NCBI RefSeq assembly: GCF_024362485.1
Contig: NZ_CP101456.1
Location: forward strand, 3,472,001 to 3,536,000
From: Natronobeatus ordinarius
GTDB lineage: Archaea > Halobacteriota > Halobacteria > Halobacteriales > Natrialbaceae
Length of the DNA stretch: 64,000 bases
Direction: 5' to 3'
The notes under the pieces are model-generated. The model ran no database searches, was not told where the DNA came from, and saw only the letters and a program-made list of their open reading frames with translations. Numbering within the stretch: position 1 is the stretch's first letter; the number at the start of each line of letters is the position of its first letter. Shown in pieces: positions 20,194 to 46,550 of the stretch. The translations under genes and the position numbers were made by a program.

Positions 20194-20290
20194 CCTATCA
20201 AGAAGCCCGAAATGGTGTAACGTGAGGATGTTATTCGCGGATACATGCTGTCGATCCGGCTATATCAATGATCTCGTATGTAATGAAAGG

Positions 20291-20297
20291 CTATAAG
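20291..20297 (+). promoter_or_regulatory. TATA box of the BREX operon
   Basis: CTATAAG lies 25-31 nt before the ATG at 20322. It implies that the BREX transcript is leaderless and that the first in-frame ATG codons upstream (20268 and 20283) are not used. Confidence 0.5.
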
Positions 20298-20321
20298 TCT
20301 GCCCTCTATCTCAACAGGTAT

Positions 20322-24952: not shown

Positions 24953-25548
24953 CCGAAGACAGCGACTCGCCGTACCGAGCGTTCAAAGAGAAGCTGTGTA
25001 CGTTCGCCGACGGCCAGCACGGAATCCGAAACCCGTTCGTCATCGCCGCCGTCGATCCCGCCCTCGAACACGAGGTGGTCGCGCGGCTGGAACGGTGGGC
25101 ACGGGGGGAGGGAGAGGAACCGCCGTCGATCCCGGACGACGTGACCGTCCAACCCATTTGGCTCGACGAACTGTTCCCACGAACGGACGTGTTCAAGCTC
25201 CTGCTGGATCTCGGCGACGAGACGGAACCAGCGAGTATCGAAGGGACGATGCAGGATCGACTCGCCGATGAACTCGTCCAGGTGATGGTCAGCGACGTGA
25301 TCGACAGGGAGGCCCTTGAGTCGCCCAACCACGTCGTATTGCTCCTCAACCTCGGGAGTCTGTACCCGTTCACGCGGGCGTCCGAACTGCTCGACGAACT
25401 CGATCGGCGTAACGTCAAGTCGACGATCGGCATTCCGTTCCCAGGTGAGGTCGTCGGCGGGAAGTTGAACTTCTTCGGTGGCGACTCGCGCCACTACTAT
25501 CCGGCCCACCAGATCGACGGCAAGATTCAGGAGGTGCATCTCCCATGA
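24949..25548 (+). CDS. brxB: BrxB (DUF1788)
   Basis: The 199-residue protein has the DUF1788 pattern: an RNPFVIAAVDPALEHEV strand-helix start, the central VVLLLNLGSLYPFTRASELLDEL strand and helix, and the closing STIGIPFPGEV. It is the small BrxB component found next to BrxC in several BREX types; its biochemical role is not known. It is enclosed by two BrxC genes and overlaps both by 4 nt, an arrangement typical of the haloarchaeal type 5 locus. Confidence 0.9.
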   Translation: MTEDSDSPYRAFKEKLCTFADGQHGIRNPFVIAAVDPALEHEVVARLERWARGEGEEPPSIPDDVTVQPIWLDELFPRTDVFKLLLDLGDETEPASIEGTMQDRLADELVQVMVSDVIDREALESPNHVVLLLNLGSLYPFTRASELLDELDRRNVKSTIGIPFPGEVVGGKLNFFGGDSRHYYPAHQIDGKIQEVHLP

Positions 25549-28500
25549 TGATCGGCGCACTCTTTCACAGCGATCCGACGCGACAGCTCGAGGAGGTACA
25601 GAAGGTAAACGCTCGCGACCGGGCCGAAACCGACGTCCGGGAGTTCCATGAGACCGAGAGCGCGAAACGTGCGCTCACCGAACTCGGTGACGTCGTTCGG
25701 ACCTATCCCGACGAGGAGCCGCGATTTCTCTACTTCCACGCGACGTTCGGCTCGGGGAAAACACACCTCCTGAAACTCATCGGGCTCGTTGTCGATGGCG
25801 AGTCGGAACTTGCTCCCCTCGGGGAGCGACTCGCCACGAAGTGGCCGGGATTCGATTCGCTGCGCCATGCGGTCGAGGACTCCCACGTCGATCGGCTCAA
25901 GCCAGTGTTCCTCAACCTGCTCGATCGTGACGCGTCGAAGGAACCGCCGCTGCCGTTCCTGCTCTACGAGGCGATCGCCCGCGAACTCGGCTATCCCACG
26001 GACCCGAACTGGCTGCTCGAGTGGGCCTGGACGGTCGATTCGGAATACGACGGAGTCTGGGACGCGCTCACCGAGTTCGAACACGACGGGCGGACCTTTG
26101 CGGACGTCCTCGAGGAGCGGGCGTACCTCCGGACGTGGCTCTACGAGGCACTGCCCGCACTGGCGGAAACGACCGGGACCGATCTCGAGACGGCAGCGGG
26201 GGTCAAAGCGTCCATTGAGGCGGCCGAAGCGGAAGTCGACCCCGAGTCGTTCGGTCCCGACGACTTAGTGGAGCGCGTCGAGACGGCGACGGCGGCGTTG
26301 AACGAGGACGGGACGCGAACCGAACTCCTGCTGGGGCTGGACGAGGTCGCGCTGTTCGTCGGCGACAGTCGCCACCGGTATCGGGAGTTCGAAGAGACCA
26401 TGGAGGCCCTCCAGCACGGCCCAAACCCGGTAGTCGTCACGACCGGTCAGTACTCCCTCCCCGAGACCAGGAAGAACCTCATCGGCGAATCGGACGCGGA
26501 TCACTGGACGACCAGGCAGGTGCTCCTCGAGGGGACCGACACGGAGATCATCGTCAGGAAACGCTGGCTGCAGAAGCGTACCGAGGGATCGGAGTTTACG
26601 GAGTCGCTGCTTTCCTCAGTGTCCGACCTCTCGCTCGAGACGTACGAGGAGGTGACGAGTGCAGACCCCGACCCCGTCGAGTCCTACCCGTTCCGCGAGT
26701 ACGACCTGACGTTGCTCCGGCGGGTGATGCAGGAGCTGATCACCCAGGGTCGACAGACCGACCACGAGTACATCCAGGGACGGGCGTTGCTCGTCCTCGT
26801 CCGGTCGCTGTTCACCAAGTTCGACTGGGCACGGACCGAGGCCGGCGCGCTCGTCACGTGGGACCAGCTGTTCGACTTGCTCGTCGAGGAGACGACGTAC
26901 GTCCCGCTGTGGGTCCAGGAGATGATCGACAACACGCTGGTACCGACGTTCGGCGACGAGGAGGCCCGGGAAGTGCGCGTCTCGAAGGCGCTCTACCTGC
27001 TGAACCAGGCGCCCGCAGTTCCGGCGACGCCCGAGAACCTCGGCCGGCTGCTGGTCGACGACGTCGAGGCGTCGGTCGAGGAGGTCATCGCGGAGACCCA
27101 GGACGCACTCGAGACGCTCGTCGACAAGCGGAAGGTGCTCACCGAGACCAACGATCACGGCGACGAGGAGTATACGCTCGTCTCCGAAGACCAGGAGAGT
27201 GTCCTCAGTCGCGCCCAGACGAAAGCCGAGGAGATCTCGCCCCACCAGCTGTCGGCGTGGCTCGAGACGCGCTTCCGGGAGACTGACGACTTCTTCCGCA
27301 GCGACGGGACCCGCCACGAGATCGACGTCGGCGACGAACGCCTCGTCCCGCTGCGATACGAGTACTCCGTCCTCGATCCCGTCAACCGAGCGCCCACGAG
27401 CGAGTACGACGCGGTCTGCGTGCGCGTGCTGGCCGACGAGGAAGACGTCCTCACCGAGGGAGTCGAGACCTGGCAATCGGTCAACGAGGGACGAACCGGC
27501 GGCGAGCACGTCCTGATCGCCATCGAGGTTCCGGGGGCGATGCTCGACCGGATCCGCAACGTCATGGGAATGCGCCAGGCGCTCGACGAGGAGGTGGAAT
27601 CGTACGACGAACTCGAGCGCGAACTCCGGACCGACGAGCGCCGCCTCGAGGCCTCGGTGAGCGGGGTCCTCGAGGGAGCGGACGTCTACACCGTCGCGGG
27701 TCGCGAAGGGTCACGGCCGGAGATCCTAGAGCGGGTGATCGCGGACGAGGTTCGGTCGGTCTTCGGCTCCTCGCGGAAGGTGCTCTCGCGGTCGCTCGTC
27801 GAGGTCGAAGACGCGAAGGCGATGGCCGCGTTCTTCCGCGGGAGTGGCGAGTGGCCGCTGTCGGCAACCGACGCCGAGTTGCTCGGCGTCGACACGGAGA
27901 CAGCCGAACTCACAGACGACGGGTGGTGTCGGTCATTCGTCGAGGAGCACGAACCGCAGCCGATCGACGTCGAGACGCTACTTCGACGGACGGAGACCGC
28001 CAAGGGGGCCTATCGCGGGACGCCCCAGGAGTCCATCGCGGCGTTGCTCATCACCCTCGCAACGTCGAACGAGAACGTCGGGCTCAAGCGTGACGTCGAG
28101 TACGTGACCGACCCCGCGGCGATCGGTCGAGCGGTTCGGACGAAAGGCGGGCTGACGTCGCTGCAGGTGCGCTTCGACGTCGAGATCGTCGACCGAAAGC
28201 AGGTCCGGACGTTCATCGAGACGCTCCTCGAGCGCGAGCCCGCCGGCGAAGGAGTCGACGAGTGGCTCGCCGACCTCGAGGCGTGGGTCGACGAGAACCG
28301 CGCGTCGATCAAACGGACGCTGAAGGAGGCCCGCAAGGAGTTCGACGCGTCTCTCGAGACGCTTTCTGCGACGCTCGAGCCGGCGTTCGAGGGCGAGGGC
28401 CTCACCACGTCGGACCTGGGCGGCGACCGGCGCCTCGAGACGCTCATCGAGGAGGCCGAGACGTTCGCCGCCGCCCGCGAGCTGTTCGAGGGCGGGTCGG

Positions 28501-29366
28501 AATCGCTGTGGGCGCGATTCGAGGAGATGCGCTCGACGATGGCGTCGCGGTATCCCGACGCGACGATCACCGAGCGGATGCATGCGACTGCGTCGGCGGG
28601 GACTGTCCCGACCGTGACGACGGTGGAGTCGCGGCTCGAGGACGCCCGGGCCCACCGCGTCGACGCCGTCTCGGCGCAGTACCGGCGGCTCACCGGCGCG
28701 TCGCCGTCGGCGTCGACGGTCGGGGGCGTGCTCGAGGAACTCGGCGAGTGGCTGTGTGCGAACGAGTCGGTGGTTCGTGGCCTCTTCGAGGACGCAACTG
28801 CGACGTTCGAGGGCGTCGATCTCGGGGCGCTCGAGGCGCTCTGTGCGTCGGCGTTCGAGGGCGACGCGGTCGCGGAGGCAGACCTGGTCACGTCGGATGC
28901 GGTCGGACAGGCGAAGACCTTCGAGCGCGTCCGGGAGCTGTTCGACGACGTCGACGGTGAAAGCCCGTGGGCGAGACTCGAGGCCGCCGCGGAGACACTC
29001 GCGGCGGAGTATCCGGAATCGCTCACGCGGGAGTCCGTCGAGGGGACGCTCGCCGCCTCCCGACCGCCGACGCGACGGCGCGTCGAGGGGTTGCTCGAGG
29101 AAGCGAAGGACCCCATCCTCGGCGGTGGGAGCACGCTGGATCGCCTGACGACCGTCGGGCGTGACCTCGAGGGGAAGCTTCCGAACGCCGATCTCACCCG
29201 GGAGGTGAGCCAGGCACTCAAGTCCGAGGAGCTCACCGAAGATCGCGCGGCGGAACTGCTCTCTGCGGCGGAGACGGTCCTCGATCGACTGGGCGCCCTC
29301 GAGGAGCAATTGGACAATCTTGAAGACGGTAGCGTGGTTCTGATCGAGACATCTAACCGGGACTGA
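25545..29366 (+). CDS. brxC: BrxC/PglY-type ATPase, second copy
   Basis: The 1273-residue protein begins MMIGALFHSDPTRQLEEVQ and has Walker A FHATFGSGKTHLL at residues 64-76 and Walker B LLLGLDEVALFVG near 260. The C-terminal third is very regular acidic helix with repeated LEEAEKFAAARELFEGG-like motifs (about 960-1000 and 1120-1150), suggesting duplicated helical modules. Two BrxC/PglY genes in one operon are the hallmark of type 5 BREX. Such pairs may form a hetero-oligomer; that is inference. pglX follows after 5 nt. Confidence 0.9.
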   Translation: MMIGALFHSDPTRQLEEVQKVNARDRAETDVREFHETESAKRALTELGDVVRTYPDEEPRFLYFHATFGSGKTHLLKLIGLVVDGESELAPLGERLATKWPGFDSLRHAVEDSHVDRLKPVFLNLLDRDASKEPPLPFLLYEAIARELGYPTDPNWLLEWAWTVDSEYDGVWDALTEFEHDGRTFADVLEERAYLRTWLYEALPALAETTGTDLETAAGVKASIEAAEAEVDPESFGPDDLVERVETATAALNEDGTRTELLLGLDEVALFVGDSRHRYREFEETMEALQHGPNPVVVTTGQYSLPETRKNLIGESDADHWTTRQVLLEGTDTEIIVRKRWLQKRTEGSEFTESLLSSVSDLSLETYEEVTSADPDPVESYPFREYDLTLLRRVMQELITQGRQTDHEYIQGRALLVLVRSLFTKFDWARTEAGALVTWDQLFDLLVEETTYVPLWVQEMIDNTLVPTFGDEEAREVRVSKALYLLNQAPAVPATPENLGRLLVDDVEASVEEVIAETQDALETLVDKRKVLTETNDHGDEEYTLVSEDQESVLSRAQTKAEEISPHQLSAWLETRFRETDDFFRSDGTRHEIDVGDERLVPLRYEYSVLDPVNRAPTSEYDAVCVRVLADEEDVLTEGVETWQSVNEGRTGGEHVLIAIEVPGAMLDRIRNVMGMRQALDEEVESYDELERELRTDERRLEASVSGVLEGADVYTVAGREGSRPEILERVIADEVRSVFGSSRKVLSRSLVEVEDAKAMAAFFRGSGEWPLSATDAELLGVDTETAELTDDGWCRSFVEEHEPQPIDVETLLRRTETAKGAYRGTPQESIAALLITLATSNENVGLKRDVEYVTDPAAIGRAVRTKGGLTSLQVRFDVEIVDRKQVRTFIETLLEREPAGEGVDEWLADLEAWVDENRASIKRTLKEARKEFDASLETLSATLEPAFEGEGLTTSDLGGDRRLETLIEEAETFAAARELFEGGSESLWARFEEMRSTMASRYPDATITERMHATASAGTVPTVTTVESRLEDARAHRVDAVSAQYRRLTGASPSASTVGGVLEELGEWLCANESVVRGLFEDATATFEGVDLGALEALCASAFEGDAVAEADLVTSDAVGQAKTFERVRELFDDVDGESPWARLEAAAETLAAEYPESLTRESVEGTLAASRPPTRRRVEGLLEEAKDPILGGGSTLDRLTTVGRDLEGKLPNADLTREVSQALKSEELTEDRAAELLSAAETVLDRLGALEEQLDNLEDGSVVLIETSNRD

Positions 29367-29371
29367 CATTC

Positions 29372-32300
29372 ATGGCAAAAGGAACTCTCCAGGAACGGAA
29401 GGCACAGCTGGACAAAGCAGAACGCGAGCACTTAGAGGACGTCGTCGCGGAGATGCGCGGGCGTATCGAGGACCACGTCCGCTTTCGGCTCACCCAGGAG
29501 GGGCTCGAGATCGAGCCCGAGGACGCGGACGATCTCGAGGAGGAGACTCGCCAGCTCGTCGAGGCGATCGAACTCGAGGCCGTCGACGGCTACGACTGGG
29601 ATGAAGCCGTCGAACAGTACGTCACCGGCGTCGGCTACACGGTGGTCAACCGGCTGGCCGCGCTGCGGTGTATGGAAGTGCGGGGATTCCTCGAGGAGGA
29701 GGTCACGGTCTTCAAGGAAAACGGCCTGACCCCGGCGGCGGAGACGCTCGTCCACGAGGAGTTCTTACTCGAGGACGAGGCGATCCTCGAGGCCTACCAG
29801 GGGACCTGTGACGATCTCGCCGAGGAGATCGAGATCCTGTTCGACCGATCGTCGGCCTACAGCCTGCTGGATCCCGACGACGACACCTACGAGGCCCTTT
29901 GCACCTTGCTCGACGAGGTCCCCGACGAGGTCTGGCGTGCCGACGACGTGCTCGGGTGGGTCTACGAGTACTACAACCGCCCGGTCGTCGAGGCGCTGGA
30001 CGCCAAGAACACCCTCGAGCCCGAAGACGTCGGCCCCGCCAACCAGTTCTACACGCCCCACTGGGTCGTCCGGATGCTCACCGACAACTCGCTGGGGAAG
30101 CTCTACCTCGAGGCCACCGGCCAGGAATCGACAGTTCCCGACCCCGAGGAACTCTCGATCGAGGAGCGCAAGGAACGGCTCGTCACGCCAGAAGACTCTC
30201 CGGACGTCCCGAATCTTTGCACCTACCTGATCCCCGACGAGGACGACCACGAGGCACCCGCGTTCGACGACCCCTCCGAGATTCGCGTCATCGATCCCGC
30301 CTGTGGGAGCGGGCACTTCCTGCTGTACGCCTTCGACGTCCTCGAGCGTATCTGGTGGGCCGAACGTCCCGACCTCGACCGGAAGGAGGTCCCGGCGAAG
30401 ATCCTCGAGCACAACCTCTACGGCGTCGATATCGACCTGCGTTCGTGTCAACTCGCGGCGTTCAACCTCTACCTCAAAGCCCGCACCCGCGCCGAAGAGG
30501 AGGGTGACGGCGGCTTCGAGTTGCCAAACGTCGGAATCGTCTGTGCCGACGCCCGCGTTGCCGAGGTCGAGGAGGCCGTCGAGGTGCTCAACGAGATCAC
30601 CGGCGAGGGAACCGACGTCCGTGCGGCCCTCGAGGAGATCATCGAGGAGTTCCAGACTACCGAAGCTCTCGGCAGCTTGCTCGACGTTCAGGGGACGCTC
30701 TCGGCGGAGTTCCTCGAGGACCAGACGGACCTCTTTGACTATACTGACGATGGCCCCAAGACGCTGAACGCCTTCCTGAAGGCACTGCGCGAGGCCGTCG
30801 ACGAGCGAACGTCGGATTCCTTCGGCGAGCAGAATCTTCGAAGTTTCCTCAATCTCCTAGTGGTGTTGACCCAGGAGTACGATGTGGCGTTGATGAACCC
30901 GCCATATGGTTCAGGAGGTCGGATGCCTACTACTGTACGGAAATATATCGAACATCATTACGAGTATACAACAGAATATTATATCAATTTCTTTGAGGTT
31001 TGTGACAATTTGGTAAAGGCGTATGGACGAATTGGGATGCTCGTTCCCCGATCGTTCATGTTCCTCAAGTCATTTCAGGACTTCCGGGAAGATTTTATTG
31101 GAGGTGCGGGATCATTCGATTTCTTGGCTGAATTCGGCATAGACATTCTTGATAATGCAACTGTTAGGACTGCGGGTACAGTCGTACGTTCAGGCATAGA
31201 GAGTGATCAGGAAGGTACATTTATCCGTCTCGACGATATTAAAAAATCGCAAAAAGAACGCTCGTTTTTACATTCGTCCTTCGTCGATTCAAGTGAAAAC
31301 GGAATCCAGCGAAGATATCAGCGTGAACTGTCTGATTTCGAAATGGTTCCCGGAACCCCGATCACTTACTGGGTTCCGACCGACTTGCGATCGGTTTATA
31401 AGTCTAAAACTGTCCTTGATGCGGATAACGCTAAAGTCGAAGGGAATGACACATATGGTGTCATTAAGCAAGGGCTCGCGACGGCAGATGATTCGAGGTT
31501 CGTTCGGAACTTTTGGGAGAATTCAGATTTGAATTCGTGGCCGCCATTCGCCAAAGGCGGAGAGGACGCGTGGATTTTACCCAGGGTGAAAAATACAGTC
31601 CTCTGGAAGAACGATGGGGGAGAAATAAAGCGGTATGGAGGATCTCGACCTCAGAACACTCAATTTTATTTTGAGGAGTCACTGACATATACAGTCGCAA
31701 AAGAAAGTGGACGCCGATTCGGTTATCTCCACGAGGATTCTATATTCGGTCATAAAGGTTCCGTTCTCATTCCGAACCGATGTACGTGGAATGGTCTCTC
31801 GTACACAAATAGCCATTTATTTACATATTTAATGCTCGCACAGACCACCGAGCGAATGTGGGAAGTTGGACAGGTTTCCAAACTTCCCTGGCGTGAAGAA
31901 CTCGAAGATATTGAAGAATTAGAGGCGCTTTCCCGTGAGGCCGTGGGTTATCTGATCTCAAAACGGCAGTACGAATTTGTTTCACCCCACTACACAGGTC
32001 CTGTGCTTCTATCTGTCCTTGGCATTGAGGGATCACTTCCCTATTCTGAACATCCTCATCGTGAACTACGCGAAGAACTCGATGTCATTTCCCCTATGGA
32101 TATCGCTTCACCCGATACTTCGCTACACGACATAGGTATCATGGCAGCGAAACACCTCGAGCGAATCGAAGCGAACCTGCAAGAGTGCGCCGACGCAATC
32201 GACGAGGCAGTGTTCGACTGCTTTGACATCTCCGAGGAGCAACGCGAAACCATTCTTCAAGAGATTGCTCTTAGAACGAACAAAGATCCACGCGAGCGCG

Positions 32301-33577
32301 AGGAGTACGACCCCGATTCCATCACGGAACCCGGCGAGAACTTCCCCGAGATGGTCAAAGACCTGCTGTTGCACCTCGCCCTCCGGATCGTCCACGAGGA
32401 CGACGACGGAATCGTCGCACTGTCGGACGTCGACCGCGAGTCCGACCTCCTCGAGCGCCTCGAGGACGAGTTCGAGCGCATCTTCGGCGAGTACGCCGCC
32501 GATCGGCTGGCCGAGGTCGACCAGGTGCTCGGCAGTCGGACGGCCGACGAGGAAGCCTACCCCAACCTCCGGGCGTGGCTCGAGGACGACCTCTTCGAGT
32601 ACCACGTCTCGAAGTTCGACCGAGTGCCGATTCTGTGGCGGCTCACCACCGAACGCCTCGTCTCCGATCCCGACGGCGAGGGCTTCGCCTGCCTGCTCGA
32701 CTACCACCAGCTCGACGCCAGCGTCTTCGATAAGCTGCAGAACCGCTACCTCGAGCCCCGGAAGGCGCTGCTCCGGGAACGGCGTAGCGCGGCCAACCGC
32801 CGCCGGAGCGACGAATCGCTCTCGGCTTCCGAGAAGGCCGCCGCGGCCGAGGAGTACAGCCGGTGTGAGAGCGCCCTCGAGCAGATCGCCGCCCTCGAGG
32901 ATCGGATCAGCGACCTCGCACAGCCCGATCCCCGGGAGTGGCCCGAGGAGAACCAGGCGGTTGCTCGCGAGGCTGCCGAAAGGGTCGCCGAGTTCCGGGA
33001 AGAAACCGCACGGCGACTCGAGGCACTCGAGGAGCTGGCCGACCTCGATGACATCGATATGGAGGACCTGTTCAGCCCCTCGTTCTACGACACAGTGCAA
33101 GGGAACAAAGACGAGTGGATCGACGCACTCGAGGACCTCGAGGCGGCCTTCGAAGCGTATGCCGAAGACGGCTCCGAACCTGTCGAGGCCCACCTCTACG
33201 ATCTCTTCGAGTACTACCACGACCTCGTCGGCTCCGCCCACTACGCGAGCAACGGCATTCTGTTCACCACCTACTACTACGACAAGTTCGAGGAGCCCGA
33301 GCAGGCCCAACTCGGCGACGGCGGCGCCACCCGCAAGCAACGGCTGCTCTCGGAACTGGCGAGCGACCTCGAGGCGTACCGGGATCTCGCGGACGAGATC
33401 GCGGACGCGTGCGACGCCATCTCGAAGGACATCTCTTCGGACTGGGCGGATCGGGCCCTCTCCGAGATCACGACCAGAGGCTACGAGCCTAACCACAAAC
33501 ACGGCGTCGCGATCAACGTCACGCCGCTCGCCGAGGCGGAGATCGTCCCCGAAATCGTCGACGAGAAGGTGATCTGA
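29372..33577 (+). CDS. pglX: PglX adenine-specific DNA methyltransferase of BREX
   Basis: PglX methylates adenine at a non-palindromic site to mark self DNA and sets the specificity of the system. The 1401-residue protein has the N6-adenine methyltransferase motifs: SAM loop VIDPACGSGHFLLYAF at about residues 304-319, GVDIDLRSCQLAAFNLYL, and catalytic NPPYG at about 507. The target-recognition part (about 510-925) is encoded by visibly AT-richer DNA (about 30890-32150) with different codon choice from the GC-rich flanks, pointing to exchange of this cassette. The C-terminal third is coiled and acidic. It overlaps the next gene by TGATG. Length is full; no stops. Confidence 0.95.
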   Translation: MAKGTLQERKAQLDKAEREHLEDVVAEMRGRIEDHVRFRLTQEGLEIEPEDADDLEEETRQLVEAIELEAVDGYDWDEAVEQYVTGVGYTVVNRLAALRCMEVRGFLEEEVTVFKENGLTPAAETLVHEEFLLEDEAILEAYQGTCDDLAEEIEILFDRSSAYSLLDPDDDTYEALCTLLDEVPDEVWRADDVLGWVYEYYNRPVVEALDAKNTLEPEDVGPANQFYTPHWVVRMLTDNSLGKLYLEATGQESTVPDPEELSIEERKERLVTPEDSPDVPNLCTYLIPDEDDHEAPAFDDPSEIRVIDPACGSGHFLLYAFDVLERIWWAERPDLDRKEVPAKILEHNLYGVDIDLRSCQLAAFNLYLKARTRAEEEGDGGFELPNVGIVCADARVAEVEEAVEVLNEITGEGTDVRAALEEIIEEFQTTEALGSLLDVQGTLSAEFLEDQTDLFDYTDDGPKTLNAFLKALREAVDERTSDSFGEQNLRSFLNLLVVLTQEYDVALMNPPYGSGGRMPTTVRKYIEHHYEYTTEYYINFFEVCDNLVKAYGRIGMLVPRSFMFLKSFQDFREDFIGGAGSFDFLAEFGIDILDNATVRTAGTVVRSGIESDQEGTFIRLDDIKKSQKERSFLHSSFVDSSENGIQRRYQRELSDFEMVPGTPITYWVPTDLRSVYKSKTVLDADNAKVEGNDTYGVIKQGLATADDSRFVRNFWENSDLNSWPPFAKGGEDAWILPRVKNTVLWKNDGGEIKRYGGSRPQNTQFYFEESLTYTVAKESGRRFGYLHEDSIFGHKGSVLIPNRCTWNGLSYTNSHLFTYLMLAQTTERMWEVGQVSKLPWREELEDIEELEALSREAVGYLISKRQYEFVSPHYTGPVLLSVLGIEGSLPYSEHPHRELREELDVISPMDIASPDTSLHDIGIMAAKHLERIEANLQECADAIDEAVFDCFDISEEQRETILQEIALRTNKDPREREEYDPDSITEPGENFPEMVKDLLLHLALRIVHEDDDGIVALSDVDRESDLLERLEDEFERIFGEYAADRLAEVDQVLGSRTADEEAYPNLRAWLEDDLFEYHVSKFDRVPILWRLTTERLVSDPDGEGFACLLDYHQLDASVFDKLQNRYLEPRKALLRERRSAANRRRSDESLSASEKAAAAEEYSRCESALEQIAALEDRISDLAQPDPREWPEENQAVAREAAERVAEFREETARRLEALEELADLDDIDMEDLFSPSFYDTVQGNKDEWIDALEDLEAAFEAYAEDGSEPVEAHLYDLFEYYHDLVGSAHYASNGILFTTYYYDKFEEPEQAQLGDGGATRKQRLLSELASDLEAYRDLADEIADACDAISKDISSDWADRALSEITTRGYEPNHKHGVAINVTPLAEAEIVPEIVDEKVI
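30890..32150 (+). other. AT-rich mosaic segment of pglX (specificity cassette)
   Basis: From the NPPY codons onward the DNA becomes AT-rich, with many NNA/NNT codons, and returns to the GC-rich haloarchaeal style near 32150 (a gradual tail runs to about 32290). The limits coincide with the end of the catalytic part and the start of the helical C-terminus. This is what replacement of the target-recognition domain by homologous recombination in the flanks would leave. Confidence 0.75.
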
Positions 33578-34116
33578 TGAAGGCCCACGTCTTCGCGGAA
33601 GGATCCAACACGACGGCCGAGGACCGTGACCTGCCTCTCGTGGAGTACTACGAGGGACTCTTCGGGACGGTCGCAGGCCTCCAAGAGGAACTGGCCGACC
33701 ACACCGACACGACGCTCCACGTCCTCTCCGAGGAGTTCGGCGCCGCCCGCGGTCACGAACGCGTCGCCGACCTCGAGACTCGAGGAACCCCCGTCGGCTT
33801 CGAGGAGATGACGGCCGCAGCGAGGGAGGAACTCCGAGGCGCTGCCACGGACGCTGACGTGATGGTCGTCCTGCTGTCGACGGACGTCTTCGAGATGACG
33901 GTTGGCGAGGCGTGGCCGGATCTCGTAGAAGCTGCGAAGCCGGGCTCGATCTGGTGTCTCAGCGCCGCACGGAGCGCACTCGAGGAACTCGACCTCGAGG
34001 CCCTCGAGACGGACGGCCGGACCGTCCTCACCTACGAGCGTCGCGGCGTCGCCCGAATCGGAACCGAAACGCGCGAACAATTGCTCGAGACCGTGACCCA
34101 AACCGCCACCCAGTGA
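33577..34116 (+). CDS. Unassigned 179-residue protein between PglX and PglZ
   Basis: I do not recognise a named family. The protein is a small alpha/beta fold: a first strand KAHVFAEGS, a segment LVEYYEGLFGTVAGLQEELADH with TTLHVLSEEFGAARG, then DVMVVLLSTDVFEMTV and GSIWCLSAARSALEEL. The order (YY-x-LF helix, then a strand ending in LSEEFG) vaguely recalls DUF6884/YaaA-like proteins, but this is weak. It overlaps pglX by 1 nt and is followed after 2 nt by pglZ, so it is made in step with the methyltransferase. That makes it a likely regular member of this BREX variant rather than a passenger. Confidence 0.72.
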   Translation: MKAHVFAEGSNTTAEDRDLPLVEYYEGLFGTVAGLQEELADHTDTTLHVLSEEFGAARGHERVADLETRGTPVGFEEMTAAAREELRGAATDADVMVVLLSTDVFEMTVGEAWPDLVEAAKPGSIWCLSAARSALEELDLEALETDGRTVLTYERRGVARIGTETREQLLETVTQTATQ

Positions 34117-34118: not shown

Positions 34119-36311
34119 ATGCCAGCGACCAAAACCCTTCCACAGTGTGCCCACGACGCCCTCGAGACCGCCATCGCCGACGCCGTCGACGACGAGCCGG
34201 TCGTCCTCTGGTGGGACGAGGGCGGCTACCTCGAGGACCTCGTGCGAAACGTGAGCGCCACCCTCGGCTGTACCTTCCGGAAAGCCGAGCGAACCCTCCT
34301 CGAGCTTCGGGCCGAACCCCCGCGGGGGAAGACGGTCTGGTACGTCCCCGAGACCCCGGACGAGGACGTCGACTGGTTCAAGGACGTCGAGAACACCGGT
34401 AGCGTCCTCAAGCTCCACATCGGCAAGCTCGCCGCACGGTGTTTCGAACGTGATCGCCTCCAGGCCGCCTCGCTCCGGGCTGCCTTCGAGGACGCCACGG
34501 TGGACGACGACCTCGAGGAGGACGACCGCGACAAGGTCGCGAAGACCCTCTACCGGGAACTCGACGGCCAGGGCGGCCTCCCCTCGCTGCAGGCGCTCCA
34601 GACCAAGATCGTCCTCGATGGCCACGATGATCCCGTGCGGTTCGTCCTCGAGTACGGCGTCGAGGGCTTCTCCGACGACGGCGCCGAGGACGAGGGGCAC
34701 CAGGAAAAGGTCGTGCAGATCCGCGACCTCCTCGTCGACCAGGGCGTCGCCGCCGTAGAGGGCGTCACCGACGCCGAGACGATCGTCGAGCGAACCCGTC
34801 GCTGGGCGGTCGCCGAGTGGCTCGTCGACGAAGGCCTCGAGGCCTCTTTGCTCCCCGAGGAGTATCTCCCCGGAAGCGGCTCGAGTATCGGCATCTCCCG
34901 GCCTGAACTTCGCTCGACGCTGAGCAAGACCGAACGACCCGACGAACTGGCGGCGATCTACCTCGACCCCGAGCGCCGGTTCTGGCACGACGTGATCCGA
35001 ACCTACGACGAGCCCTGGACGCTCGTCGAGTGCCCCGTCGACGGCACCCTCGAGACTCGTCTCTGGGACGAGTGGATTCATCACTTCCAGGAGAGCGACT
35101 ACGAGACCTGCGCCACCCACGCGCGAGCGCGCCATCGCGCCCTCGAGCGCACCTTCGGCGACGTCCCGTGGACGAACGTGTGGAAGCAGGCGATCGACGT
35201 CGCCGACCTCGCCGCCGAACTCGAGTCCTGGGCGGAACGCGACGACGGCGACGTCGTCGACCTCTACGGCGACGTCGAGAACGGTACCTGGCAGATCGAC
35301 AACGCGGTGTTCAACCTCGTCATCTCCGGGGAACCCGAGGCCGACCTCCCCGAGGAGCACCCCGCGACGGCGACGCTCGCAGACCTGCGCACCTCGCTCG
35401 TCGAGGACAGCTACCTCGAGTACCTCTCGGAGCTGGGCGATCTCGTCGTCGAACAGATCGACTCCGGCGCGCCGTTCGTCGGCAAGCGCCACGCCCACCA
35501 GTTCTTCGACGAGGAGTCGGAGTACCTCCAGAGCGGCCAGAGCGTCGCGCTGTTTATCATCGACGCCCTGCGGTTCGACCTCGCACACGAGCTCGCCGAG
35601 TCCATCCGCCGCGAGCTGCCGGAGCTCGAGGTCGATGAAACCCCGTGGGTCGGGACGCTCCCCTCGGACACCGAGTTCGGCAAGGCGGCGCTCACCCCCG
35701 GGAGCAAGTTCAGCTTCAAAGTCGAACTCCGAGACGGCGATCTCGTTCCCGTTCGAAACGGCCGTCGAATCACTAACTACCAACGAAGAGAGCTACTGAC
35801 GAACGACGGCTGGAGCTACATCACCCAGGGAGGCGAGGAGACGGGTTGGAGTAGCACTCGCGTCGTCTACTACTGGAACGACATCGACGAAGCCGGCGAG
35901 AACGAACTGACCGACTTCGAGGACGTGTTTCGCGACCGTCTCGAGACGATTACACGGATTATCTGCGAGAAGATCGATCAGGGCGAGTGGGATCGGGCGT
36001 ACATCCTTACGGACCACGGGTTTGTGACCCATCCAACAGAACCAACTATTGATTCGCTGAGACCACCTCACGGCGCTGAGAAGGTTACACGCCGATGGAT
36101 CGCCGGTTCAGACGTCGATTACGACAAGGCAGGCGTTCTGCTGGACGAAAACACCCACCTCGGCTACCTCGATTCGGATACGAAGATCGGTATTCTATCA
36201 GATCCCCTTCAACGATTCAGCAAACGGGGGCCTTCCAATAACCGATTCTTCCACGGTGGGATCCTCCCACAGGAGTTCGTACTGAACTTTATTACGATCA
36301 CCCAAGAATAG
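34119..36311 (+). CDS. pglZ: PglZ, alkaline-phosphatase-superfamily BREX protein
   Basis: The frame is open further upstream, but the ATG at 34119 starts the protein 2 nt after the preceding stop; 730 residues. The PglZ core begins near residue 475 with SVALFIIDALRFDLAHEL (metal-site Asp), continues with TLPSDTEFGKAALTPG and ends with YILTDHGFVTHP (Asp-His metal ligands). The N-terminal half is acidic helical. PglZ is the constant component of all BREX types; it works with PglX. The last 350 nt are less GC-rich than the rest, again hinting at exchange at the locus. The operon-like run ends here; the helicase lies 3.5 kb away. Confidence 0.93.
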   Translation: MPATKTLPQCAHDALETAIADAVDDEPVVLWWDEGGYLEDLVRNVSATLGCTFRKAERTLLELRAEPPRGKTVWYVPETPDEDVDWFKDVENTGSVLKLHIGKLAARCFERDRLQAASLRAAFEDATVDDDLEEDDRDKVAKTLYRELDGQGGLPSLQALQTKIVLDGHDDPVRFVLEYGVEGFSDDGAEDEGHQEKVVQIRDLLVDQGVAAVEGVTDAETIVERTRRWAVAEWLVDEGLEASLLPEEYLPGSGSSIGISRPELRSTLSKTERPDELAAIYLDPERRFWHDVIRTYDEPWTLVECPVDGTLETRLWDEWIHHFQESDYETCATHARARHRALERTFGDVPWTNVWKQAIDVADLAAELESWAERDDGDVVDLYGDVENGTWQIDNAVFNLVISGEPEADLPEEHPATATLADLRTSLVEDSYLEYLSELGDLVVEQIDSGAPFVGKRHAHQFFDEESEYLQSGQSVALFIIDALRFDLAHELAESIRRELPELEVDETPWVGTLPSDTEFGKAALTPGSKFSFKVELRDGDLVPVRNGRRITNYQRRELLTNDGWSYITQGGEETGWSSTRVVYYWNDIDEAGENELTDFEDVFRDRLETITRIICEKIDQGEWDRAYILTDHGFVTHPTEPTIDSLRPPHGAEKVTRRWIAGSDVDYDKAGVLLDENTHLGYLDSDTKIGILSDPLQRFSKRGPSNNRFFHGGILPQEFVLNFITITQE

Positions 36312-36340
36312 TCGCTGAAGACTATCATTCGAATCCACCA

Positions 36341-36440
36341 CTGAACAAAGAAGAACGCGACCATCTTGGGGACGGGGTTGCAGAGATGTGTGTCACATCG
36401 AGAATTCTGTTCAGGAGGGACTCGAGATCAAGCCCAACAA
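36341..36440 (+). pseudogene. Degraded 5' end of a second pglX-like gene
   Basis: Just after pglZ the plus strand reads LNKEERDHLGDGVAEM. This matches LDKAEREHLEDVVAEM near the start of the intact PglX at 11 of 16 positions. After a 16-nt deletion relative to pglX the next frame reads QEGLEIKP, against QEGLEIEP in PglX. Spacing and order are conserved, so this is a true remnant, not chance. Nothing of the methyltransferase core remains. A further open frame to about 36625 has no clear relation to it. Confidence 0.7.
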
Positions 36441-36526
36441 TATAGGGCGAATTTTACGAGGTGACCCGAAAGATCCTGGAGTTCGATCACTACGAGGAGA
36501 TCGAGCGATGGTCTCGATTATGTCAG

Positions 36527-37012
36527 TTAACTCGATTGGGGGCTTTCCTCCTGGGTGCTCACCTTTTGCCTCCCTTTCTTATTCACGAAATATCCAAGCG
36601 CGAATATTACGAGCGCAATTAGGAAGAACACAAATGCCCAGACGACCAGCCCTATTAGACTGCCAAAGAATTCGCCCGCTCCCTCGAGTCCTTCCCCTGC
36701 GCCGAACATCACTGGGATGTAGAACAGAATTGGCGTCAACACCAACAATCCAGCGGAGATGTAGAGTCCCGTACCGATCGTCAGCCACGTCGACGGCTTC
36801 CGGTACAGGTACCAAGTCGAACCAACGAGCCCGACGATGAACAATACTTCTGAGCCCCCGATATTCAAGGACATCCACGCGAGGAGGCCCCCAATAACCA
36901 GGCCCATAAGCACTGATGCAAAGAGCCGAATCCACGCAATCGCACGGAATCTACCGCGCTTTTCCACCTGTTCGTCAAAATGGTCGTCCGGCGCAGATTG
37001 CTCCCCTGCCAT
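36527..37012 (-). CDS. Predicted small integral membrane protein
   Basis: The 161-residue protein has four predicted membrane helices: IRLFASVLMGLVIGGLLAWM, SEVLFIVGLVGSTWYLY, IGTGLYISAGLLVLTPILFY and the long LIGLVVWAFVFFLIALVIFA. Both ends are short, charged and probably cytoplasmic. I cannot name a function. It sits on the opposite strand between pglZ and brxHII, in the inserted block. Confidence 0.7.
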   Translation of the reverse strand: MAGEQSAPDDHFDEQVEKRGRFRAIAWIRLFASVLMGLVIGGLLAWMSLNIGGSEVLFIVGLVGSTWYLYRKPSTWLTIGTGLYISAGLLVLTPILFYIPVMFGAGEGLEGAGEFFGSLIGLVVWAFVFFLIALVIFALGYFVNKKGRQKVSTQEESPQSS

Positions 37013-37468
37013 AATCCTTCTGCACTGGGACCCGTTATAGAGCCGTGCTATTGTTTCACATTCTCATTTGTCGAGCTCGATCCTAAGGTCCGAATGGGGA
37101 AGTTCAGTGAAGATGTACACATGGTGTGGCCATATTACCGACTTTTCTAAGCGACACAAATACCCAGTTAATCTCAATAGCTAACCCGTTCATCTTACTC
37201 GGTTTCCTTAGTAGAAGCTCACCTGCCAAACTCATCCGTACAGAGACCGACTATCCAGCGGCTTGTAGCGGAACATGTTTTTTGAACCCCTCGTTCCAAC
37301 CGAATATAAATCGATATGGCTTGACCATCGCATTGTCGCTGTCTGCCACTCATTACGTTCTCCTCTGTGATTTTTGAACAGCAGTTGATAATGATGTGAA
37401 TCAAACTTCAGCTTTGATTACAATATCGACTCGTGGACCGTCTATGGAATCGCTAATAGGGCTATATT
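37013..37468. other. 456-bp AT-rich intergenic region without a gene
   Basis: Short frames occur on both strands but lack coding character. TATA-like patches lie near 37305 and just before 37469. No repeat or inverted repeat stands out. Confidence 0.5.
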
Positions 37469-38227
37469 ATGGCTAGCACGGTACCTGTCATGTATGGGGG
37501 GAACATTACTACTTACGGCAGGCGAAGTGTACTCAAAACGGCGGGTACACTCATCATCACGGCCATCGGCGCGGTTAGCGTAGCTGGCGCAGACAACGAC
37601 GAAGCAGATGGGGGAGAGAACGTACTCGACTTCGACACCGAGGTCGACCTCGAAGCAGACTTTGAGTTCGAGGGTGCCGGGCAGCGAGTCACTGACGAAG
37701 TTGAACTCGACGATGGGCCTGTCATTGCCATGGTGGAATACGATGGAGATGCCTCGATTCACGCCCACGCTATTCCGCAAGCCGATCAGGATATGGAGCG
37801 GGTGATCGTGATGACTGATGACGGTCCCCGTGGCGTCGGTGGTGTGATGGCAACGGAAGGACCCTACGTGTTCGAAATCGACTTGCTGTTCGTCGACTTC
37901 GATCTCGACGAGTCGGAGATAGAGTGGACGATAACAATAGTCCAGCCGGTGGCTGAAGAGGGTGATGCGATCGAACCGCCCGTCGAATTCGAGGGTGAAG
38001 TAAGCACGCTCCTTGGACCGGTCCGTTTGGATGGGACCGAAGTCGCCGCAGCGACCCACGACGCGGAGGGCAACTTCCAGATCGATGCGCTCCCACAGGA
38101 GGCGGAATTCGCCGACGCGATGTTCTTCGAAACTGGTGAGTTCGAAGGCGAAACAACCGTAGACACCGAGGGTGTGAACTGGATAACGGTAGAGGCTGGT
38201 GGTGAGTGGACGCTGTCGATCGAATAA
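37469..38227 (+). CDS. Tat-exported protein of unknown function
   Basis: The 252-residue protein has a twin-arginine signal: YGRRSVLKT followed by a hydrophobic stretch (AGTLIITAIGAVSVAGA) and a cleavage-like AGA at about residue 44. The mature part is acidic and rich in beta strands (VIAMVEYDGDASIHAHAIP, IEWTITIVQPV, WITVEAGGEWTLSIE). No catalytic motif is evident. A later ATG (codon 8) is an equally possible start and keeps the signal. It has no obvious link to BREX and is probably a passenger. Confidence 0.75.
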   Translation: MASTVPVMYGGNITTYGRRSVLKTAGTLIITAIGAVSVAGADNDEADGGENVLDFDTEVDLEADFEFEGAGQRVTDEVELDDGPVIAMVEYDGDASIHAHAIPQADQDMERVIVMTDDGPRGVGGVMATEGPYVFEIDLLFVDFDLDESEIEWTITIVQPVAEEGDAIEPPVEFEGEVSTLLGPVRLDGTEVAAATHDAEGNFQIDALPQEAEFADAMFFETGEFEGETTVDTEGVNWITVEAGGEWTLSIE

Positions 38228-38249
38228 CGATCCACTCGGTGAGATTCAG

Positions 38250-38888
38250 TCAGTAGGTCGTCGTAGTAGAGAGTTGGTTCTGAGCGATAATACGAAGGTG
38301 GGCTTTCACTGCCTGGATAAGTTCCTGATAGTTCGCGAAGTCATCTGTCGTGACGTGCCATCGATCACTGACTGCACGGATCATTTCGCTGTCGACGTCG
38401 CGTTCTTCGGTGAACAACACCTCCTCGAGGAGCGCAGGTGCAGGTAGACTCTCGCAGATGGCGCCGGTTTCGATTCCAACACCCAAATTGTCCCCCATCG
38501 CAGGTGTCACGAAAATGGTGGCGTTCGCTGCCCGTGTGAACGCAAGACTTTGTGTAGCGGCATCGATTTCATCGGTCTCGATCTGTGGGTCTGTGGCGAT
38601 AAACGCGTTCACGCCTGCTTTCTCTCGAAGTTCATCGCGAAGGTAGAGAAGAAGTGCGAGTGCATCGTCGACGTTCGAAGAGAAGTCTTGATCATCCTCA
38701 ATACGATCGTTGATCTCGTTAAGTGTAGGACGGCTTGTCGCCGCATTCGACACGTCGTGCGTAGGTGGGGTGGGATATGGGGGATAGGATTTGTACGGTC
38801 CCATCAGGTACACGAGGAAGTGTGGCTTGGAGACAGTGGACTCCAAATAGGGGCTGTCCTCTAGTTCAGTGATGAGTCGTTCTCTCAT
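38250..38888 (-). CDS. DUF7509-like protein, possible deoxyribosyltransferase/TIR-type fold
   Basis: The 212-residue protein follows the haloarchaeal DUF7509 pattern as I recall it: HFLVYLMGPYKSYP near residue 23, a helix LALLLYLRDELREKAGVNAFIATDP, AFTRAANATIFVTPAMG, and NLGVGIETGAICE with a conserved Glu. The order (GP strand-loop, NAFxAxD strand, VTP strand, GxxxE helix) is that of nucleoside deoxyribosyltransferases and related TIR/STALD NAD-processing enzymes. That relation is inferred. It is divergent from a winged-helix regulator and lies inside the BREX neighbourhood, so a defence role is possible but unproven. Confidence 0.65.
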   Translation of the reverse strand: MRERLITELEDSPYLESTVSKPHFLVYLMGPYKSYPPYPTPPTHDVSNAATSRPTLNEINDRIEDDQDFSSNVDDALALLLYLRDELREKAGVNAFIATDPQIETDEIDAATQSLAFTRAANATIFVTPAMGDNLGVGIETGAICESLPAPALLEEVLFTEERDVDSEMIRAVSDRWHVTTDDFANYQELIQAVKAHLRIIAQNQLSTTTTY

Positions 38889-38915
38889 TTCACCAGTCTC
38901 TTCTCAAATTCTGAC

Positions 38916-38923
38916 GATAAAAG
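38916..38923 (-). promoter_or_regulatory. TATA box of the DUF7509-like gene
   Basis: CTTTTATC on the minus strand, 28-35 nt before the ATG at 38888, in the 144-bp divergent region shared with the regulator gene; it suggests a leaderless transcript. Confidence 0.4.
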
Positions 38924-39032
38924 CCTTGATAAGAGACGAGTTGGTTCTACCGATGGAACTATCTTCACTTCCACTACGGTAAGGACTGTTAAGATGCTTG
39001 GTGCTGTATCACCTGATACGGAGGTAAAACGT

Positions 39033-39491
39033 ATGACGGAGACTCCCCCCGAAACGCTGCCCGACGGCGGCCTGGCATTTCCTGAACGCCAAAATGACGA
39101 TTCTAATGGAGACGATCGACCACCGTTTGACCTCGATCTCCCTGAGGATAGTCTCTTCACCGAGGAGGATTACTACAAGATGTACCGCATCGCTGCGGAC
39201 CCGTTACGCTCGAAGATTATGCGCGCGCTCTCGGTACATGAGCGACTCAGCACCGGCCAGATCTCGAAGTTAGTCGATCGAGATGCAAACGATCTCCACT
39301 ACCACCTTCGCCAACTCAAACAGACGGCGCTCATCCGAAATCAGCGTGAACCTCGAAGTGGTACGACGGAGCCGTACTCCTACTACACCTTGACGCCCCT
39401 CGGTGAGACGGTGCTCACTGAGGGCCTCGAGGACGGTGTGAAGAAACTCGCTGCCCAGGAACGCGAAATTCGGGAACACTTTTCCAAGTAG
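39033..39491 (+). CDS. Winged-helix transcriptional regulator (ArsR-like)
   Basis: The domain begins at about residue 45: YYKMYRIAADPLRSKIMRALS, then the recognition helix STGQISKLVDRDANDLHYHLRQL and wing YYTLTPLGETVL, a typical haloarchaeal ArsR-like fold. I prefer the ATG at 39033 (MTETPPETLPDGG); an in-frame ATG at 38994 would add 13 residues. The N-terminal 40 residues are disordered and acidic. It is divergent from the DUF7509-like gene, which it may control together with itself. Confidence 0.78.
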   Translation: MTETPPETLPDGGLAFPERQNDDSNGDDRPPFDLDLPEDSLFTEEDYYKMYRIAADPLRSKIMRALSVHERLSTGQISKLVDRDANDLHYHLRQLKQTALIRNQREPRSGTTEPYSYYTLTPLGETVLTEGLEDGVKKLAAQEREIREHFSK

Positions 39492-39797
39492 ATAGCAGTG
39501 GGCTGTCTCCACTCACCGACGCATTTCCAGTCGAGTATCTTGGCTTCGATCAGCGTCAGCCTCTTTTGAGCGACTGAAAGCGAGATCGCCAACAGAACGG
39601 ACGAAATTAGGGGTTGGGCGATTGGGGCTTGTGCATCTTGTTCAGACAAGAGTACGAGTCACGCTTGAACTGGTTGATCCCAAAATCGTGCCTGAGCCCG
39701 CAACCGTGGATTCCTTTGAGAGGAGGGATCCGTTGTACGTGTTGTGGTGGAGAACATTCATACTATGTTCAACGTATGGTTTGGACACTAACGAAAA
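39492..39797. other. 306-bp region upstream of the helicase gene, no gene seen
   Basis: The frame from about 39622 is open into the helicase gene in another frame (LVHLVQTRVRVTLELVDPK) but has no recognisable content. No strong TATA box is seen at the expected distance from 39798. Confidence 0.4.
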
Positions 39798-42710
39798 ATG
39801 GATGCTACATACGGTCCCGGCGACACAATTTTTCTCAATGGTGAGCCGGCCGAGGTCATTAAAACGTATACTGTCGGCGATCTCGAGTACCTGCGTGCGT
39901 ACGTCGAGAATATCGGCGTGAAAACAGTCTGTCTCGACGACGTCGAAATCGAACCTCAGGAGGATTCCCTCGAGACACTCTCTCCGAACACAGCGGGTGA
40001 CCTCCATCCCAAGCACGACACCGTCTCCGCTGAGTGGTTCGATCTCCGTTCGCAGGCGCTCCAGCTACAAATCGCCCACGAGCAGGGACAACTCCTGAGC
40101 ATCTCGAACTCGCTGGTTCGCCTCGAGCCCTACCAACTCGAGTGTGTCAACTGGGTAATGCAGAAACTCCGCCAGCGGGCACTCATCGCCGACGACGTCG
40201 GTCTCGGGAAGACCATCGAGGCGGGATTGATCCTGAAGGAACTCACAGCGCGTAATCGCGCCGACCGCGTTCTCTTCGTCGTTCCCGCTCACCTCCAGAA
40301 GAAGTGGATCCGTGACATGGACCGCTTTTTTGACATCGAGCTCACGCCGGCCGATCGGAAGTGGGTCGAGGGTGAGCGTCGACGTCTCGGCGAGGAAGCC
40401 AACATCTGGAATCAGGACCACCAGCGACTGGTGACAAGCATGGCCTTCCTCCGTCAGGACGAGTTCCAGCCCGAACTCGAGGACGCCTTTTGGGACGTGG
40501 TTGTCGCCGACGAAGCCCACAAAGCCGCCAAGCGTGGCGAGTCAGCGAACAAAGCGGCGAAGATGGTTGAACGGGTTGCAGGGAACTCAGATGCGCTTCT
40601 GTTGCTCAGTGCCACACCACACGACGGGAAAGGCAATGCGTTCCGGTCGCTTGTCGAGTACATCGACCCGTTCCTCGTCGCCGAGGATCGGGAGTTGACT
40701 CGAGACACCGTCGACCGGGTGATGATCCGCCGTGGAAAGCAAACCATCTACGACGACGACGGCGAGCGCATCTTCCCGGATCGAGACGTCAGGACGGTCC
40801 CGGTCGAGATGAGCCACGAAGAACGCGCGTTCTACCGCGCTGTCACTGACTACGTCAAATACGTCTACAACCGCTCTGAGCGACTCAACGAACCCGCGGT
40901 CGGGTTCGCGATGGCGCTCATGCAAAAGCGCCTCGTGAGCAGCATCGGTGCCATCAGGGCAACACTCAGTCGACGACTGCGTAATCTCGTCGCCGAGCAA
41001 TCGACGGGAACGGCGCTCTCAGAGGAGGCGAACGCATACTTAGAGGGGGAGGATCTCGACGAGGACGATAAACAGCGAGTCGAAGCTGAACTCGCGGGAT
41101 TGACCGTCACCGAAAGCGATGCTGAGCTCGAAGAGGAAATCGAGACGCTTCGGGACCTCATCACCCTCGCCGAACGCATCCCCGTCGACTCGAAGGCACA
41201 GAAGGTCCGCCGATTCATCCAACAGCTGCTCGAGGAACAACCGAACGAGAAGGTCCTGCTGTTCACCGAGTATCGGGACACACTCGAGTATCTCCTTGAT
41301 CTCGTGAAAGACGAGCCGTGGGCTGACGAAATCCTCGTCGTCCATGGGGACGTGGACAAGGAAGATCGCACCCAGATCGAAGACGAGTTCAACTATGGAC
41401 AGTCACGGCTGCTTTTCGCGACCGACGCGGCGAGTGAAGGGATCGACCTCCAGCACAGCTGCCACATCATGGTGAACTACGAGCTGCCGTGGAATCCGAA
41501 CAGGCTCGAGCAACGCATCGGCCGGATCCACCGCTATGGCCAGGACAAGGAGGTGAAGGTGTGGAACTTCTCGTTCGAGGAAACGAGGGAGGGGGAGATT
41601 TTCGAGATGCTCCAGAACAAGGTCGAAAACATCCGTGGGAAACTCGGGAACACGGCCGACGTGTTGGGGATGCTCGATGAGATCGACCTCGACTCGCTCA
41701 TCATGCGCTCGATCCGAAACGACGAACCCGCGAGCGCAACCAAAGCAGAACTCAAGGCATTGATCGATGAACGCCAGCGGACGCTTGAGGAGTGGTACGA
41801 CCGAAGCCTCATCGACACGAGCACGTTCGACGAGGAGAGTCGGCGAAAGATCCAACAAGTCGTCGACGACTCCGAAGGCGTCTACGGAACCGAGGCGGAC
41901 ATTCGGGAGTTCGTCGAGCGCGGTGTGCGGACCCTTGGGGGCGAGATCGAAAGCGCAGGAGCCAACATGTACCGTGCTGAGTTGCCCGAATTGATCGGAA
42001 CACGGGTTTCACAACCCGAGTACGGTCCGTTCACCTTCAGTCGCGAGTTCGCGATGGACCACGAAGGGATAGAATACGTCTCACCGGATTCGGCGCTGGT
42101 CCAAGGGCTCATGGAACAGATCCTCGATGAGAATCGGGGAGAGGTGGGGCTCAAACTCCTCCCGTTCGTCGAGACGCCCGGGATTACGTACAATTACCGG
42201 GTTCGGTTCGAGGATGGGACGGGCGAAGTGATTCGAGAGGAGTTACGCCCCGTATTCGTGGACATGGACTATCACGACCCACAGCAACGACTGGGTCGTC
42301 GCGTACTCGAGGCAGAAAGCGTCCAGGGCTCGCCGGACGAACGGACAGTCCAGACGCTTCTAGAGGCGGAGGGTGATCTCCGTAACGCTGCAGACGAATA
42401 CGTCAGTACACACGTTGTGTCACTCAAGAATGGGCTGCAGAGCCGTCGAGAGGCAGAGACAGAGCAAGAGTTAGACGACCTTCGTGAGTATGCCGAGGCC
42501 GAACGGATGCGGATTGAACAGTTCATCGACGAGTACGAACAACGAGCCGACGCCGGCTCTGACATGTCGATTGCGATCCGAAGACAGCGACAACGCCTCT
42601 CGAAGTTAGAGGAACGACTCGAGACCCGGCGCGAAGAGCTGCGACGGAAATCACAGGTCATCTCACTCGCGCCTGAAATCGAGGCACGTTGTCTGGTGCT
42701 CCCTGTTTGA
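39798..42710 (+). CDS. brxHII: SNF2-family helicase, BrxHII-like
   Basis: The 970-residue superfamily 2 helicase has Walker A IADDVGLGKTIEAGLIL at about residues 128-144, DEAH box VVVADEAHKAAK at about 235, motif III LLLSATPHDGKGN and the C-terminal helicase part LLFATDAASEGIDLQ and NRLEQRIGRIHRYGQ near 536-580. After it comes a coiled-coil tail. This is the layout shared by BrxHII of BREX and DrmD of DISARM. With no DISARM genes around and a full BREX set 3.5 kb upstream, BrxHII is the sensible name. It is on the same strand as the BREX operon but separated by unrelated genes. Confidence 0.85.
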   Translation: MDATYGPGDTIFLNGEPAEVIKTYTVGDLEYLRAYVENIGVKTVCLDDVEIEPQEDSLETLSPNTAGDLHPKHDTVSAEWFDLRSQALQLQIAHEQGQLLSISNSLVRLEPYQLECVNWVMQKLRQRALIADDVGLGKTIEAGLILKELTARNRADRVLFVVPAHLQKKWIRDMDRFFDIELTPADRKWVEGERRRLGEEANIWNQDHQRLVTSMAFLRQDEFQPELEDAFWDVVVADEAHKAAKRGESANKAAKMVERVAGNSDALLLLSATPHDGKGNAFRSLVEYIDPFLVAEDRELTRDTVDRVMIRRGKQTIYDDDGERIFPDRDVRTVPVEMSHEERAFYRAVTDYVKYVYNRSERLNEPAVGFAMALMQKRLVSSIGAIRATLSRRLRNLVAEQSTGTALSEEANAYLEGEDLDEDDKQRVEAELAGLTVTESDAELEEEIETLRDLITLAERIPVDSKAQKVRRFIQQLLEEQPNEKVLLFTEYRDTLEYLLDLVKDEPWADEILVVHGDVDKEDRTQIEDEFNYGQSRLLFATDAASEGIDLQHSCHIMVNYELPWNPNRLEQRIGRIHRYGQDKEVKVWNFSFEETREGEIFEMLQNKVENIRGKLGNTADVLGMLDEIDLDSLIMRSIRNDEPASATKAELKALIDERQRTLEEWYDRSLIDTSTFDEESRRKIQQVVDDSEGVYGTEADIREFVERGVRTLGGEIESAGANMYRAELPELIGTRVSQPEYGPFTFSREFAMDHEGIEYVSPDSALVQGLMEQILDENRGEVGLKLLPFVETPGITYNYRVRFEDGTGEVIREELRPVFVDMDYHDPQQRLGRRVLEAESVQGSPDERTVQTLLEAEGDLRNAADEYVSTHVVSLKNGLQSRREAETEQELDDLREYAEAERMRIEQFIDEYEQRADAGSDMSIAIRRQRQRLSKLEERLETRREELRRKSQVISLAPEIEARCLVLPV

Positions 42711-46336: not shown

Positions 46337-46362
46337 TGTCACGATACTGGTGTGACCAGACA

Positions 46363-46550
46363 CTAAAATACTCCTGTTGAAGACTGTTGATCGGGTTTCA
46401 CAAATCCTCTGTTCCCGATAGTCTCGCTCAAGTAGCCAAGAAATATCGAGTCACATTCTTCATCGACGTGGTTCACGTTCCAAAGGCCTGATCCGCGGAT
46501 TTTCTTGCTTCGACTATAATTTCCGAGCTAATTATCTGAGCGTGAGTCAT
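46363..46550 (-). pseudogene. Two short coupled or frameshifted frames before the GmrSD-like gene
   Basis: On the minus strand MTHAQIISSEIIVEARKSAD to TGA at 46473 overlaps (GTGA) a frame from 46476 reading VNHVDEECDSIFLGYLSE to TAG at 46363. That TAG in turn overlaps the GTG at 46363 of the nuclease gene. The two pieces read well as one 60-residue protein with a one-base shift. They may be a small upstream gene or a decayed one; no family recognised. Confidence 0.3.

Follow-up and report, generated by a model that had tools for sequence, protein, structure and literature searches.

BREX type 5 of haloarchaea comprises brxA, brxB, two brxC/pglY genes, pglX, pglZ, and brxHII in one cluster. 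Type I restriction-modification systems can have several hsdS genes, so that one core is combined with more than one specificity protein and recognition parts are exchanged. The loci described below resemble such systems in having more than one specificity protein beside one core and in the apparent exchange of recognition parts, and differ from them in that methyltransferase and specificity are one protein, the shared part being its N-terminal domain. pglX is also the variable gene in phase-variable BREX, where the variation mentioned arises from a homopolymer tract within the coding region (available portions of PMC6326788 and PMC11341690); the change considered here, by contrast, involves the presence and loss of a directly oriented second gene, and no inverted copy was found. 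In PMC12839542, type 5 is classed as a helicase-containing subset of type 1, and the available portion of its type-5 treatment does not mention a second pglX. In the literature searched, which included the available portions of PMC12839542, PMC10609329, PMC6326788, and PMC11341690, the founding paper being outside its reach, a second pglX was nowhere reported for type-5 BREX; the two-pglX BREX slot that is marked by the remnant described here seems to be undescribed in that literature.

The pglX remnant behind pglZ

The locus lies in a 64-kb stretch (the window) of contig 1 of a 4.2-Mb genome assembled in two contigs. It shares every core gene of BREX type 5, in order, with PADLOC matches for all seven genes, and differs by a pglX stub behind pglZ, where some relatives have a whole second pglX. 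The features are as follows:

20268..21167, plus strand: brxA (PADLOC BrxA, 411 bits)
21164..24952, plus strand: brxC, copy 1 (PADLOC)
24949..25548, plus strand: brxB (PADLOC)
25545..29366, plus strand: brxC, copy 2 (PADLOC)
29372..33577, plus strand: intact pglX, 1401 aa, methyltransferase/specificity protein (PADLOC PglX, 2370 bits)
33577..34116, plus strand: orf179, a small gene between pglX and pglZ, with a same-place copy in some relatives
34119..36311, plus strand: pglZ from its ATG start, the listed ORF beginning at 33912 (PADLOC PglZ, 1044 bits)
36341..36438, plus strand: pglX2 stub, remnant of PglX codons 13-49 (profile alignment, shuffles, and DNA comparison)
36439..39797, no strand: unrelated sequence, 3.4 kb, the place for the rest of a second pglX (G+C, ORFs, and profile scans)
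36527-37012, minus strand: ORF
37469-38227, plus strand: ORF
38250-38888, minus strand: ORF, DUF7509
38994-39491, plus strand: ORF, HTH protein
39798..42710, plus strand: brxHII helicase (PADLOC BrxHII, 1873 bits)

Two further genes of the window may be mentioned. orf179 (179 aa) yielded no Pfam or PADLOC match; it stands between pglX and pglZ in only some relatives, and between pglX and the helicase in L035 and L155. Downstream of the BREX operon, at 44495-46363 on the minus strand, lies a GmrSD-type nuclease gene (PADLOC HEC-05), a candidate second defence gene.

The stub comprises 98 bases directly behind pglZ, whose stop is 29 bp ahead of it. It reads LNKEERDHLGDGVAEM, which a 1-nt deletion (36389-36396 against 9 nt) separates from IENSV; QEGLEIKP then follows after an in-frame loss of 15 nt (5 codons) behind 36411. 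The corresponding residues 13-49 of intact PglX are LDKAEREHLEDVVAEM RGR IEDHV RFRLT QEGLEIEP. The initial annotation had placed two blocks of the PglX N-terminus here, separated by a net 16-nt deletion, and its coordinates, both blocks, and the size of the deletion are all correct; the middle block, IENSV, also aligns with PglX. Sequence inspection revealed no in-frame start codon left for the stub. Significant homology to PglX, together with a frameshift, a deletion, the lack of a start, and truncation, marks the stub as an ordinary pseudogene remnant.

The strength of the match was evaluated by frameshift-tolerant alignment to a profile built from 71 pglX N-termini, with scores in half-bits. 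The interval 36341-36438 aligned to PglX residues 13 to 49 or 50 with one −1 frameshift and a score of 65.4, which was reached by none of 400 dinucleotide shuffles (mean 27.3, SD 3.9, maximum 53.7). A tblastn search with residues 1-300 of intact PglX against 36312-36800 gave an E value of 7e-5. Both of these checks had been proposed with the annotation, and the match withstood them. When the whole window was scanned in 772 tiles on both strands, only the real pglX start exceeded the stub, and the next unrelated tile scored 57.3. In 11,706 control tiles from 73 loci of relatives, with long pglX matches left out, scores above that of the stub came from L111-L116 only; that in L116 (68.9, at about 6931-7260) belongs to an acidic stretch, which we take for a chance match. 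Because this stretch scores higher than the stub, the score alone is not overwhelming, and judged on sequence alone the match appears clear but short.

Position and DNA comparison provide additional information. In the first 329 bp behind each of 57 pglZ genes (see below), scores were 422-627 for nine real second pglX genes, 65.4 for the window, and ≤37.5 for the other 47. At the DNA level, 76 of 94 aligned bases of the stub are identical to the start of the pglX gene of the same operon. Among 75 pglX 5' ends this start is the best match (score 55, next 44; 200 shuffles compared with all 75 ends gave at most 32), which is what two copies kept similar to each other would show.

The 3.4-kb stretch between the stub and brxHII has a G+C content of 52.6%, compared with 58.4% for pglX, 64.1% for pglZ, and 58.5% for the helicase. 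No remaining pglX parts were found between 36440 and 39797. The four small ORFs were absent from the 73 loci of relatives, save for one weak match to the HTH protein, and inverted repeats in 36200-39900 were only 14-27 nt long and imperfect. Two candidate pglX pieces were rejected. The segment 36456-36509 (EVTRKILEFDHYEEIERW), considered as a third PglX piece, gave no profile signal; its similarity to a PAS/GAF-type signalling protein (L047, L049), and that of its second half to a cation-transporter-like protein (L066), is unconvincing, both names being our reading of the sequences. An apparent PglX C-terminus just ahead of the helicase (tile 39440) scored 38.8, a value reached by 41 of 638 window tiles.

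A second pglX at the same place in relatives

A related-locus search in the genome contigs returned no relatives. pglX N-terminal searches of overlapping sets matched 22 of 125 genomes of the family, 80 of 392 genomes of the order, and 35 of 170 and 37 of 146 genomes of two further families. Together with the window, 56 fetched loci whose pglZ has a readable 3' end form a set of 57 haloarchaeal type-5-like BREX loci. A pglX gene stands directly behind pglZ, in the same orientation, in nine of them (complete in length in L103-L109 and L164, cut by a contig end in L131), the window has the stub, and the remaining 47 show no trace. The first aligned codon of the second pglX lies 28-85 bp from pglZ, and the position and orientation of the stub are those of these second copies. 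The helicase gene follows the second pglX in the tandem loci and pglZ in most others, often by 13-30 bp; therefore, the 3486-bp gap between pglZ and brxHII in the window corresponds to the place of pglX2. The tandem genomes (G306, G148, G389, and six labelled g47) represent four genera and three families, and the nine cases are not independent, since six of them share one genus label. An internal stop interrupts the second copy of L104, an instance of pglX2 decay in another genome.

We consider it probable that a second pglX once stood between pglZ and brxHII of this type-5-like operon and that the stub is what decay has left of its 5' end. The annotation had supposed that a second methyltransferase gene or cassette once stood here. 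The stub is real, and a complete gene at this place of the window is the best explanation of it because whole genes occupy the same place elsewhere. A complete second pglX was also to be looked for in relatives, and the nine loci provide it; the suggested inverted cassette was not borne out, as all nine second copies are in direct orientation. An invertible pglX cassette would have an inverted pglX segment between inverted repeats, together with a recombinase; what was found are the direct copies and the short imperfect repeats noted above. Against a complete second gene stand the facts that only 37 codons are left, that the 3' part of pglX is absent, and that 47 of the 57 pglZ loci have no second copy.

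Other pglX fragments and alternative origins of the stub

Under the first alternative, the slot behind pglZ never received a complete gene but just a 5' fragment of pglX, brought there by a small duplication or as a recombination end. It is a possible origin because such fragments occur elsewhere with no evident second gene: in L113 a pglX 5' end is joined to a brxC2 tail in a duplication-type junction, and L114, L115, and L163 have pglX 5' stubs outside BREX operons. The end of the stub at codon 49, with no further pglX behind it, would also fit. This reading is nevertheless unlikely, given that the stub occupies the exact slot of a whole or contig-cut second pglX in nine of 57 loci and that neither a brxC tail nor another duplication partner was found behind it.

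These fragments have features of their own. At L113:7400-7870 (G192), the pglX 5' end runs to about residue 43 and straight into the brxC2 tail, upstream of an intact pglX, an arrangement resembling a tandem-duplication junction. The stubs outside BREX are at L114:6640-6780 and L115:9440-9580 (both residues 6-26) and at about 9150-9250 of L163 (residues 1-32). Those of L114 and L115 lie within a 162-bp stretch that is 82% alike, with the end of an Mrr-type nuclease gene nearby in both loci. In L118 (G265), at about 10565-11614 in flipped coordinates, a 1-kb insertion, a transposon by its look, interrupts pglX near residue 285; the PADLOC family PDLC02520 (288 aa) fits best the first half of this gene and may derive from one split in this way.

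According to a second alternative, the stub derives from a "mini" pglX with internal shortening, such as those of L111 and L112, which keep about the same N-terminal length. This is highly improbable: both known minis stand before pglZ and not behind it, and the stub is not followed by a PglX C-terminus, 36430-36800 having a profile score of 28.2 where shuffles averaged 27.9.

In L111 (7368-7730 and 9880-10167; G314) pglX is reduced to 120 aa and the helicase to an N-terminal part of 95 aa with a C-terminal piece; in L112 (7964-8371 and 10613-10792; G267), pglX has 135 aa and the N-terminal part of the helicase 59 aa. The N-terminal 45-60 residues of these minis are fused in frame to the last 60-95, and brxC1, brxB, brxC2, and pglZ are in place in both operons. 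Both genomes have full orphan pglX genes elsewhere (L110 in G314; L144/L188 in G267). Such double shortening in two lineages, with frames kept, is odd for plain decay. By N-domain match, the minis were not distinguishable in their relation to the orphan pglX genes of the same genome. A role of orphan pglX as trans partners of the resident BREX was likewise not supported by N-domain matches, the listed pairs ranking 3rd to 87th; the only mutual first match among orphans was between two orphans of one genome.

The last alternative, chance resemblance, might be entertained for so short a stub when one unrelated acidic stretch in 11,706 tiles scores slightly higher, yet it is the least credible of the three and, as far as these tests go, is already refuted: no shuffle and none of the 47 matched control flanks reached the score of the stub, and the DNA match to the genome's own pglX was well above shuffles.

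Shared N-domains and differing bodies in tandem pairs

The two PglX copies of a tandem locus share their N-terminal domain: within a genome, the first ~202 residues of pglX1 and pglX2 are 84-95% identical (eight pairs). Of the seven pairs compared over their whole length, five (L103, L105, L107, L108, and L109) show a sharp drop in identity right after DDVLGWVYEYYN; past this border the copies continue as two different bodies, with recognition regions 34-37% identical. In the L104 and L106 pairs, the methyltransferase and C-terminal parts are 84-91% identical and the recognition parts 54 and 42%, respectively. The N-domains of the L103 pair, and likewise those of the L105 pair, are each other's nearest among 59 others, and the partner ranks 25th to 50th for the methyltransferase, recognition, and C-terminal parts. 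FastTree analysis gave the same picture, with X1 and X2 of L103 and L105 being sisters in the N-domain (support 0.99 and 0.94) and spanning the whole tree in the methyltransferase part. Same-genome N-domains come first both ways in L103 and L105 only; related genomes are nearer in L104 and L107-L109, and the close kinship of the genomes in L104, L107, L108, and L109 confounds both ranking and tree.

The border at ~202 is near the end of the helical bundle of the solved Salmonella PglX (bundle 1-227, recognition domain 662-849, according to the available part of PMC11341690), and the N-terminal bundle may bind other BREX parts, as suggested in the available portion of PMC12839542. We infer that the N-domains have been kept alike by recombination and that both PglX proteins use one core. 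In tandem relatives, two methyltransferase/specificity proteins are encoded next to a single set of BrxA/B/C, PglZ, and helicase; if the common N-domain docks to this core, the second copy would give the same machine a second DNA motif. In the genome studied here, pglX2 would have lost everything past codon 49, and unrelated DNA with four small ORFs would now be in its place, leaving one specificity.

The annotation had also proposed the second gene as a donor for swapping the specificity part of pglX. Tandem copies in relatives do look like exchange partners, the N-domains being sisters in L103 and L105 and the recognition parts differing in L104 and L106. The present stub, of which only codons 13-49 remain, cannot be a donor now because it contains no specificity region; the search of the 4.2-Mb genome gave no other pglX at E ≤ 0.001, the gene at 29372-33577 being the only copy.

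Tentatively, haloarchaeal type-5 BREX can be a machine with one core and two specificities. pglX1 and pglX2 would flank pglZ and have in common a genome-specific docking domain (residue 1 to ~202) that recombination keeps alike, and entire bodies or recognition regions would be exchanged at this fixed border. Specificity would turn over by cassette exchange, with copies gained and lost, and the window might then be an end point of loss. What is of interest is the two-pglX variant to which the stub points, rather than the stub itself. Natural PglX pairs bear on how BREX changes its target motif, and pairs with a common N-domain that differ past a sharp border are ready-made tests of the role of the N-domain and of the use of two motifs by one core. 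As the stub suggests, methyltransferases come and go at this position of the operon.
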